From Conexibacter woesei Iso977N (GTDB taxonomy: Bacteria; Actinomycetota; Thermoleophilia; Solirubrobacterales; Solirubrobacteraceae): a stretch of DNA of 64,000 bases. The notes under the pieces are model-generated. The model did not search any database and had not been told where the DNA came from. It worked only from the letters and a program-made list of their open reading frames with translations. The position numbers were made by a program, and so were the translations under genes. Numbering within the stretch: the stretch's first letter is position 1; the number at the start of each line of letters is the position of its first letter. Of this stretch, positions 2,235 through 64,000 are shown one piece after another. The stretch is from assembly GCF_000424625.1 (NCBI RefSeq), contig NZ_AUKG01000002.1, positions 744,001-808,000 of the forward strand, in the 5' to 3' direction.

Positions 2235-2242
2235 CAATCGCT

Positions 2243-2690
2243 ACACACGGCCCCGGTCGTTGGCGTCGCTTCCGGCGCCTGCGTCCGCGGCCGTCGCTGC
2301 GGGTGCCGCCGGCGCTGTGGCAATCAGTCCCGCTCGCCGTGGGACCGCCACGGCGAGCGGTCTTCGCCGTCACCCGCCGCAGCACCGCGCCTTCGGCACA
2401 CACGGCCCCGATTGCTGGCGTCGCTTCTGGCGCCGGCGTCCGCGGCCGTCGCTGTGGGTGCCGCCATCGGCGTGGCAACCAATTCTGTTGGCCACGGCAG
2501 TGCCGGCGAGCGGTCTTGCCGTCGCCCGCCGCAGCACCGCGCTTCTCGCGACACGCGGCCCCGGTCGTTGGCGTCGCTTCCGGCGCCGGCGTCCGCGGTC
2601 GTCGCTGCGGGTCCCGCCATCGCGGTGGCAACCAATCCCGCTCGCTGTGGCACCGCCACGGCGAGCGGTCTTGCCGCTGACGGTGCGTCG
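2243..2690. repeat. Three degenerate tandem units of about 155 bp in a convergent gap
   Basis: The motif GGCCCCGGTCGTTGGCGTCG, or a close variant, recurs at 2249, 2404 and 2557, a period of 153-155 bp. Units 1 and 3 carry a hairpin (arms 2330-2342/2348-2360 and 2638-2650/2656-2668, 13 bp, the second with one mismatch); in unit 2 the hairpin is decayed. The block fills most of the gap between the aminotransferase (ending 2234) and the opposing gene (ending 2938). Open frames across it are Ala/Pro/Arg-rich and have no domain. The hairpins may act as terminators. Confidence 0.7.
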
Positions 2691-2827
2691 TCGCGTCGTG
2701 GTGCTGCGACGCGGCGGTCTTGGTGTGCCGCGCGGCCGTGGGGTGGTGGTGCGGGGTGTGGTTCGGTGGGCGTCGATGGGATGGCGTTGGCGGTTGCGCG
2801 GGCGGCGCGGTGTGGCTGGGCGTTGGG

Positions 2828-2874
2828 GTCAACGGTGCATTTTGGTTCGTATGGGACCCAAATGCACCGTTGAC
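2828..2874. repeat. 47-nt palindromic element (type 1, copy A)
   Basis: Arms GTCAACGGTGCAT (2828-2840) and ATGCACCGTTGAC (2862-2874) are perfect complements; extended pairing reaches 2825-2842/2860-2877. A second copy with the same arms and the same 47-nt span lies at 44491-44537 in another convergent gap. A bidirectional terminator or a REP-like element is plausible. Confidence 0.75.
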
Positions 2875-2894
2875 CCCGGAGTCGGGAGGGTCGA

Positions 2895-2931
2895 CGGCAG
2901 GTTGGTGTTCTATGCGAACACCGGACTGCCG
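2895..2931. repeat. 37-nt palindromic element (type 2, copy A)
   Basis: Outer arms CGGCAG/CTGCCG (2895-2900, 2926-2931) enclose an inner hairpin GGTGTTC-TATGC-GAACACC. A second copy of identical 37-nt span is at 44446-44482. It lies 20 bp from the type-1 palindrome and just past the 3' end of the minus-strand gene that ends at 2938. Confidence 0.7.
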
Positions 2932-2937
2932 TTGAGG

Positions 2938-4119
2938 TCACCAGCGGAGGGTGGCGAGCATGCCGTCGGCGGCTTGGAGGTCGGGCGAGGCGTCGGTTGA
3001 CAGGGTGGTGATGGTGGCGTCGCCGGCGATCGCCGCTTCGATGGCGCGTTCGGGTGCGCGGGTGAAGCGGTCGCCGCGGAGCAGCGGTTCCGCGATCTCG
3101 GGAAGCGGTGTGGCCGTGGGGCGGTGGTGGGGGTCGAGGACGAGGTGGTCGACTTGGCCTTGGGCCAGCGCCGCCAGGACCGCCGCCGGGCCCCTGGCGA
3201 AGCGCTGCATGTTGTGGAGCGCGGCGAGCGCCTCGCGGGTGTGGAGGTCCTCGATCGCGGGTTCGAGGCGCTGCGCGATCTCGGACTCGTGGGCGTCGAT
3301 GGCGTTCATCGGCAGCTCGGCGACGACGCGATCGGCGACGGCGGCGGGCAGGGCGTTCCGGAAGCGGGAGGCGATCGCGCGCTCGGCGGCGATCACCACG
3401 CGGGTCCAGCCCAGGGACTCCAGGCGCTCGGCGGTGGCAAGCGCGGCAGCGTGGAAGAACCGGTCCCGGTGTTCTTCTACACGTTGCTCGACCTGCTCGA
3501 CGTGCGTCGTCCCGCTGCGCCCGCCGCGCCCCGGCGTGGACGACGACGGCCCGCGGTACGGCCGCCAGCCCTCGCCGTCGACCTCGAAGACCTCCTCGCC
3601 CGCCTCGTCGATCCGCCCGTGCGCCCAGTGCACCAGCCGTACGCGCTCGCCGCTCACCAGCACGATCCCGACGGGCCGGGAGTGGTCCAACAGCTCGATC
3701 ATCGGCGCGAGCACCGGCTGGTCGGCCAGCGTCACCCCGGACTCCCGGACCGGGACCTGCAGGACGTAGCGGACGTCCAGCGCGCCGTCCAGATCCAGGA
3801 ACCACACCAGCGACCGCCCGCGGTCGGCGTGCCCGAGACCCTCCAGCTCGCCCTCGATCGCGCCCCGCCGCTCGCGCCACGCCAGCTTGGCCTCGCGGTC
3901 GTCGCGCGCCTCCAGCGCGGCGCTCACGTCCCGGAGCCCGTTGCGCGCGGTGACCATCCACGCGGGCGTCTGCGCCGCGTTGGCGGCAACCCGCGGGTCG
4001 GTCTGCAAGTACATGCTGATCACCGGCCCGGCCGGCCGCCCATCGGTCTGCGCGAGCGCATGGAGCATCGCGTCGTCCGGAGGATCGGCGCGCCAGTCGG
4101 AGCGGGCAAGGTCGGCCAT
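2938..4119 (-). CDS. eRF1-like (baeRF/VLRF-type) protein
   Basis: This 393-residue protein has the three-part layout of bacterial homologues of archaeo-eukaryotic release factors. There is an N-terminal alpha/beta region (about 1-130), a central domain with a Gly/Ser-rich loop around residues 195-210 where classical factors carry GGQ (no GGQ is present here), and a C-terminal domain ending in the eRF1 domain-3-like pattern ATITTLS...ADGMLATLRW. Family members are proposed to act on ribosomes or peptidyl-tRNA, in rescue or hibernation; the function of this one is inferred. A TAGCGT box (complement of 4127-4132) lies 7 bases before the ATG and no Shine-Dalgarno is visible, so the mRNA is probably leaderless. 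Confidence 0.65.
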   Translation of the reverse strand: MADLARSDWRADPPDDAMLHALAQTDGRPAGPVISMYLQTDPRVAANAAQTPAWMVTARNGLRDVSAALEARDDREAKLAWRERRGAIEGELEGLGHADRGRSLVWFLDLDGALDVRYVLQVPVRESGVTLADQPVLAPMIELLDHSRPVGIVLVSGERVRLVHWAHGRIDEAGEEVFEVDGEGWRPYRGPSSSTPGRGGRSGTTHVEQVEQRVEEHRDRFFHAAALATAERLESLGWTRVVIAAERAIASRFRNALPAAVADRVVAELPMNAIDAHESEIAQRLEPAIEDLHTREALAALHNMQRFARGPAAVLAALAQGQVDHLVLDPHHRPTATPLPEIAEPLLRGDRFTRAPERAIEAAIAGDATITTLSTDASPDLQAADGMLATLRW

Positions 4120-43993: not shown

Positions 43994-44011
43994 GCCTCGC
44001 ATCACGCGTCC

Positions 44012-44160
44012 CCCGCCCCGCGGCACCGCAGCCGCTCGCTCCGCGGCATCACTCCGCGGCACCGCGACCGTCCGGATGAAGGCGCTTCGCTTGATCGTCG
44101 TCGCCGGCTGCCACGCGACCGATCGCGGTCTTCGCCGCCGTCCGTCCGGCATGCGGGCCG
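44012..44160. repeat. Tandem-family unit (GGATGAAGGCGCTTCGCTT block), copy B
   Basis: A block with ATCACTCCGCGGCACCGC followed by GGATGAAGGCGCTTCGCTT (from 44074) recurs twice at 61681-61960 near the third convergent gap. It contains no supportable ORF. Confidence 0.65.
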
Positions 44161-44445
44161 CCGCCGCTCGGCGACATGCCGCCCTTGCGCCTCGGTCCAT
44201 GGCACTGCTCCAGCGCGGGTGTCGTCACGGCGGGGGTAGGTGCTTCGTCTTCTGCTCGGCGCGTTGGGGGTGCTGCGGCGCGGCGGTGGGGTGGTGTTCA
44301 GCGCGGCCGTGTTGCTGGCGGCTTGGAGCGTTGGTTGGGAGGGCATCGATGGCGAGCTGCGCTGGAGGCGGCGCCAGCGTTGGTGGTGTGGCTGGGCTGC
44401 TCGCCGGGACGGGGGGCGGGGTTCGGGGCCGAACGGGTTGGTCGG

Positions 44446-44482
44446 CGGCAGTTTGGTGTTCGTATGGGACGCCGGACTGCCG
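44446..44482. repeat. 37-nt palindromic element (type 2, copy B)
   Basis: Arms CGGCAG/CTGCCG (44446-44451, 44477-44482) have the same span as 2895-2931 and a related interior (TTTGGTGTTCGTATGGGAC). Confidence 0.7.
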
Positions 44483-44490
44483 TTGAGGGG

Positions 44491-44537
44491 GTCAACGGTG
44501 CATTTGGGCTCTATGCGAACCACTATGCACCGTTGAC
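44491..44537. repeat. 47-nt palindromic element (type 1, copy B)
   Basis: Arms GTCAACGGTGCAT (44491-44503) and ATGCACCGTTGAC (44525-44537) are identical to those at 2828-2874, with the same 47-nt span. Here it follows the type-2 element; at copy A it precedes it. Confidence 0.75.
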
Positions 44538-44881
44538 GCTTGGGTTCGGGCCCGAACGGCGCCCGGAGCCCTACGCGAGGCCCAAGGAGACCCGCCCGCA
44601 CCGCCACCACGCCGAGCCACACCGCCAGCGGCGGCGCGACCGCCAACGCCTTCTCTCGTCGATGCCCTCCAAGCTACGCCCCGCATTCCCACCGACACGG
44701 CCGCGCTGAACGCCACCACCGTCGCGTCGCAGCGCCGCTCACGCCGGAGTCGGCCCTCGGCCGCGTCGCAGCACCGCCACCGCCGAGGCGTGTCCGCAGC
44801 CGTCCGGGGCGCCGAGATCGTCGCCGGCAACGCCCCAGCGCGGAGCCGTCTCGGTCGCTAGGCGCGGCGCGGGCCGCTGCG

Positions 44882-63846: not shown

Positions 63847-63931
63847 AGAGGATCCTTCGAAGGTCGTGGGGGGAGTACTGCGGGTACTTCTCCCACGTCC
63901 GTCGCCCGCCCGGCCGCGCGCTGGACGGCGA

Positions 63932-63960
63932 CCGGACGAACGGCTGAGCCGCTCGTCCGG
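63932..63960. terminator. Hairpin near window end
   Basis: CCGGACGA-A-CGGCT-G-AGCCG-C-TCGTCCGG is a 29-nt near-perfect palindrome. At 63982-63984 a minus-strand TAG follows the visible codons RFTVA, so a further minus-strand gene probably ends just inside the window and is terminated here; six codons are too few to call it. Confidence 0.5.
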
Positions 63961-64000
63961 CCGGTGTCCGAAGGGGAACGACTAGGCGACGGTGAAGCGC

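Follow-up and report, generated by a model that had tools for sequence, protein, structure and literature searches.

Paired palindromes in two convergent gaps of Conexibacter woesei Iso977N: probable gene-less copies of the ends of an AbiEi-DUF559 nuclease gene unit

In the stretch of Conexibacter woesei Iso977N analysed here ("the window", 64,000 nucleotides; contig NZ_AUKG01000002.1, positions 744,001 to 808,000), two distant convergent gaps each hold a pair of palindromes. What are these palindromes, and why does the same pair occur twice? A first-pass annotation described a 47-nt and a 37-nt palindrome at 2828-2931 that recur at 44446-44537 in reverse order, and pointed to selection on structure or to a mobile REP/MITE-like element.

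Two palindrome pairs, one family

The features of the two loci are as follows.

2235..2937: convergent gap of locus 1 (703 bp), containing a truncated composite
2698..2824: long-inverted-repeat arm of a ~500-bp element (truncated copy), the single arm kept at locus 1
2828..2874, plus strand: type 1 palindrome, 47 bp, sense loop GTATG, one of two palindromes at locus 1
2890..2936, minus strand: type 2 palindrome, 47 bp, stopping 1 nt short of the stop codon of the 2938-4119 gene
43994..44881: convergent gap of locus 2, between a NUDIX gene (plus strand) and a DUF308-like gene (minus strand), containing a complete composite
44255..44732: imperfect long inverted repeat (~500 bp) in complete form, centred on the palindrome pair
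44441..44487, plus strand: type 2 palindrome, 47 bp, locus 2
44491..44537, minus strand: type 1 palindrome, 47 bp, locus 2

The palindrome sequences were as first described; the 37-nt span was not, being the inner part of a 47-nt palindrome (2890-2936 and 44441-44487). Every well-matched copy of either type is 47 nt long without indels. The two types had also been taken as distinct, and their arms do differ: these are GTCAACGGTGCAT in type 1 and GTCAACGGCAG in type 2, with TGCAT distinguishing the former and CAG the latter. Type 1 and type 2 are nevertheless a single family, sharing the foot GTCAACGG and a similar centre (TTC-N5-GA). When the types are aligned gap-free, 89% of stem pairs are kept, with compensatory change between types, and both-sided stem changes fill 75 cells versus 37 in shuffles and 3-18 with the partner slid.

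Judged on self-complementarity alone, the window copies range from unremarkable to marginal, with 19/23 and 17/23 pairs where the best of 20 dinucleotide shuffles reaches 16-18. Self-complementarity is thus insufficient by itself, and it is the genome-wide repetition described below that decides that the palindromes are not due to chance. Another palindrome in the window (63923-63969), equal in strength to the copy at 2828, resembles an ordinary terminator-type hairpin and was set aside.

With the loop as orientation reference, type 1 and type 2 sit on opposite strands within each pair, and the strand of both is switched at the second locus relative to the first. The recurrence holds, and the "reverse order" therefore amounts to one whole composite, inverted. 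We also considered kissing loops between the paired hairpins and dropped the idea, because their loops are complementary simply as a consequence of the two hairpins pointing opposite ways.

The composites, of which further copies are present elsewhere in the genome, are long inverted repeats of ~500 bp that carry palindrome pairs. In another genome of the genus (G001), the same two genes that flank locus 1 are spaced by about 34 bp, versus 703 bp in the window. Most of the remaining locus 1 gap is occupied by about three 155-nt tandem repeats (2238-2676, 81% alike), which contain internal CCGCTCGCCGTGG...CCACGGCGAGCGG palindromes. The adjoining gene at 2938-4119 has a weak match, below the curated cut-off, to an MSMEG_1130-type ribosome hibernation factor. 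G001 also has a diverged palindrome pair (L211 1812-1909; G001:C1:3362311-3362408) with flanks similar to those of the composite, and the composite may therefore be common to the genus.

Copies in the genome and in relatives

In the whole genome, exact copies of the 13-nt type 1 arms are found at 11 places, versus 0 for a reversed-pattern control. A covariance model found 45 distinct places in 5.7 Mb, with E values from 4e-14 (best) to 2.5e-4 (weakest); by our count these comprise 12 close pairs, two places flanking a gene and 19 further places. Lone copies resemble each other across about the 47 bp only, and part of the family is embedded in the ~500-bp long inverted repeats. The same-genus genome G001 has about 8 family places and G043, of the same family, two weaker ones; the covariance-type search gave none in the other 58 genomes of relatives. 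The exact-arm pattern had no match among public genome contigs, a set that does not include the genome under study, and a protein scan of those contigs had no hits either. Thus the expectation of copies beyond the two in the window, also in relatives, was borne out.

The orientation of flanking genes was recorded for all 45 places: 24 lie in tandem, 18 in convergent and 3 in divergent gaps, and none lies within a coding sequence, as judged with a simple codon-usage gene caller. The convergent setting first remarked on is therefore true of both window gaps and does not extend to the family as a whole.

Several copies have further elements nearby. In L011 (1618-2097), 136-nt tandem repeats lie close to a type 1 palindrome, and a stretch similar to them adjoins a further solo palindrome (L002 1372-1466). 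L096 (1914-2632; G000:C4:161413-162131) has two type 1-like palindromes that form a direct repeat, CTCGTCTCGTGG coming after both, and genes for a PhdYefM antitoxin and a ParE-like toxin lie between them. In L102 (G000:C1:1509551-1510024), the palindromes on the two sides of an antibiotic-biosynthesis-monooxygenase-like (ABM) gene are a type 1 copy and a degenerate type 2 copy.

One possibility for such a distribution is that the palindromes are a classical REP/MITE mobilised by a transposase, whether Y1 (RAYT) or another. Short, dispersed intergenic palindromes, mixed-subtype pairs and ~500-bp inverted-repeat composites would all suit it, and the genome has one Y1_Tnp gene, in single copy:

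303556..303885 of G000:C2: L058, the sole Y1_Tnp gene of the genome

However, no palindrome of the family could be credibly identified up to 1.5 kb from this gene. REPs are defined by a GTAG or CGTC tetranucleotide at the foot (PMC3733652), and neither these nor any other common tag was found in the tabulated flanks of 38 palindromes. The palindromes are also near-perfect over 47 bp, versus 20-40 bp for REPs, and are directly linked to DUF559 genes instead (see below). We therefore regard a classical REP/MITE as very improbable. As a description of kind, "REP/MITE-like" stands, in that this is a dispersed intergenic family with a site that varies between relatives; the proposed RAYT association found no support, the linked gene being an AbiEi-DUF559 nuclease.

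The linked nuclease gene and its homologues

A gene for a 304-aa protein (L065; C1:996367-997278) is bracketed by type 2 palindromes 923 bp apart. The left palindrome has the ATG of the gene in its loop, and the right one contains the stop codon. The protein has an AbiEi_4 domain (E 1.3e-9) and a DUF559 domain (E 1.3e-9), and its N-terminal domain matches the PADLOC AbiEi model at E 8e-28. Nuclease-like residues E208, D235, E246, D248, H253 and D262 are invariant in 25 homologues. The only other DUF559 gene of the genome is likewise bracketed by a matching pair, of a different palindrome sequence. Type 1 is the commonest palindrome family of the genome, yet no gene bearing type 1 arms was found there.

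The flanks of the 304-aa unit were located in five same-genus genomes. Where Iso977N has the full palindrome-gene-palindrome unit, G001 lacks the gene and carries a solo palindrome, GTCAACGGACCTGGGTGTCTGTATGAGACACCAGATCACCGTTGAC, at the point that corresponds to the left one, and G002 has a different AbiEi-DUF559 gene with GGTCACCTTGACGTGC palindromes. The Iso977N and G002 genes belong to separate supported clades of a quick tree (SH-aLRT 98 and 99); thus, either the site was occupied by different units, or it has been replaced. This alternation of solo and occupied alleles comes from one site. Elsewhere, G002 has a solo of its own palindrome type between two host genes, and the solos of G043 are similar to the 3' palindrome of a nuclease gene of G043, so cognate gene and solos coexist in one genome there as well.

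AbiEi-DUF559 homologues are present in 107 of 151 genomes of the order, with up to 13 per genome. For each of 87 homologue loci, we scored hairpins over a 170-nt zone at the start of the gene and took the best, a score of at least 12 counting as strong. Strong hairpins were found at 44% of starts, versus 0-3% in four control zones (MWU p 1e-21), and in 17% of gene-end zones (p 0.002); by this score about half of the sampled homologues have no strong start palindrome, and 3' palindromes are rarer still. Half of the 44 start hairpins (22) have an ATG no more than 6 nt away from the dyad, versus 19% of control positions, and in all 22 it is in frame with no intervening stop. For the 20 loci with palindromes at both ends, the mean end-to-end match was 19.4, versus 6.6 for a swap null whose best permuted mean was 12.2; at 11 of the 20 the match exceeded the entire null, and arms vary between genes. 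When 29 loci were aligned on the ATG, the arms differed and the strongest further conserved columns were T-11 T-10 and A+10 A+11, placed symmetrically on either side of the A of the ATG. Units that combine such a nuclease gene with a palindrome sequence of their own are thus widespread in this bacterial order; outside it, near-identical palindromes flank the gene at both ends in at least L253 and L269. Arm similarity showed no overall correlation with wHTH identity (Mantel rho 0.025; 553 of 2000 permutations as high), and for the nuclease domain rho was 0.076 (66 of 2000 as high). Plasmid and phage records held no homologues at E 1e-15 or 1e-10.

These results bear on a reading in which the palindromes are RNA hairpins or bidirectional terminators under structural selection. 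Stem pairs kept by both-sided changes between types, and the many copies at gene ends, are what it would predict. It does not explain why tandem gaps outnumber convergent ones, why palindromes span start codons or why TT/AA is conserved at positions +-10-11 in the manner of a protein site; the copies are near-identical repeats and not independent hairpins, and no Rfam family matched. This reading is extremely improbable.

A proposed selfish-looking unit and its alternatives

The explanation we favour, and as a whole consider probable with some reserve, is a selfish-looking unit of the form palindrome, AbiEi-like wHTH/DUF559 (Vsr-like PD-(D/E)XK) fusion gene, palindrome, of which the window palindromes would be solo, gene-less copies of the ends. 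What is observed is the unit architecture, the matching of the ends, the placement of the start codon at the dyad and, at one site, solo and occupied alleles. The target of AbiEi at its promoter is a palindrome of 23-N3-23 bp, through which the protein represses its operon (PMC3985639). By analogy with AbiEi on its 49-bp inverted-repeat operator, the AbiEi-like domain would bind the 47-bp palindrome and, once bound, may repress its own gene. The nuclease domain would cut at or near cognate palindromes, and break repair or recombination may then add the gene plus one palindrome to a solo palindrome, or remove them from it. Solos and ~500-bp composites would be footprints and non-autonomous derivatives. 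In this scheme mobility would be conferred by the nuclease; it need not be the mover, because the PhdYefM/ParE and ABM genes also lie between family palindromes.

There are two further possibilities for the palindrome-gene linkage. In the first, the palindromes are AbiEi-type autorepressor operators only: the 3' copy is a local duplication, solos regulate other genes, nothing is mobile and the nuclease is inactive on palindromes. The geometry fits an AbiEi operator, and the start palindrome covers the start codon and outnumbers the 3' one. However, the 5' and 3' copies match, 18 of the 45 places lie between convergent genes, which is unexpected for operators, solo and gene-bearing alleles occur at one site, and the ~500-bp composites carry the palindromes in pairs. 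Operators alone are therefore unlikely to be the whole explanation.

In the second, the palindromes are sites of a putative recombinase, and the genes between them (for the nuclease, the ParE toxin-antitoxin pair and others) are swappable, integron-like cargo. The genes found between palindromes in L096 and L102 are in keeping with such exchange, as is the fact that an occupied allele differs from the solo allele by a gene plus one palindrome. Yet the arms are locus-specific and common to one unit only, which argues for self-specificity, and the position of the start codon, at the dyad, links the palindrome with the nuclease gene family. We consider cassette-like exchange doubtful, and quite unlikely overall.

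The favoured unit shares features with several known systems without coinciding with any. As in a REP/RAYT system ("REPtron"), short intergenic palindromes are dispersed and copies flank a nuclease-like gene of the same genome; here, however, the enzyme is an AbiEi-DUF559 (PD-(D/E)XK-like) protein and not an HUH Y1 transposase, and the palindrome has 47 bp, TT/AA one helical turn off, a start codon at the dyad and unit-specific arms. Type IV AbiE toxin-antitoxin systems share the N-terminal AbiEi domain and, at the gene start, a 47-49-bp palindrome whose halves are separated by a short spacer, here a putative operator; they differ from the present case, where the nuclease fusion is seen as a single gene with a second 3' copy and dispersed solos. 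With homing endonuclease genes, too, a single site can carry or lack the gene, and the nuclease gene is without other apparent function, but here an intact target-like palindrome stands at both gene ends, not split by insertion, and the nuclease family is another. In integron cassettes (attC), too, alleles differ by a gene plus one imperfect palindrome, whereas here the start codon is inside the palindrome and units are single and dispersed, not in arrays. Finally, DUF559 groups with Vsr-like PD-(D/E)XK nucleases (PMC12907096); Caulobacter VsrA has a DUF559 nuclease domain but is discussed there with a cytosine methyltransferase, and that paper makes no mention of hairpins or inverted repeats.

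Our literature search, with preprints and most subscription literature outside its scope, found no description of DUF559 with hairpins, of AbiEi with DUF559 or of actinobacterial REPs with RAYT, a provisional result. The chances seem to us evenly balanced that these units are an undescribed, widespread selfish class in this phylum, in which one 47-bp palindrome serves as operator, ends and target, is lineage-specific and is left behind as solos. To our knowledge, the function of DUF559 proteins is not settled. If the explanation is true, the genes of this common family would be selfish and their palindromic ends self-specific, a large class of intergenic palindromes in these genomes would have found its identity, and there would be a second, enzymatically unrelated route to REP-like repeats. 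This would bear on the open question, posed for CGTC REPs, of palindromic repeats without a dedicated transposase (PMC3733652). Each homologue may have a distinct long-palindrome specificity beside its own gene, which would make cognate substrates directly testable.
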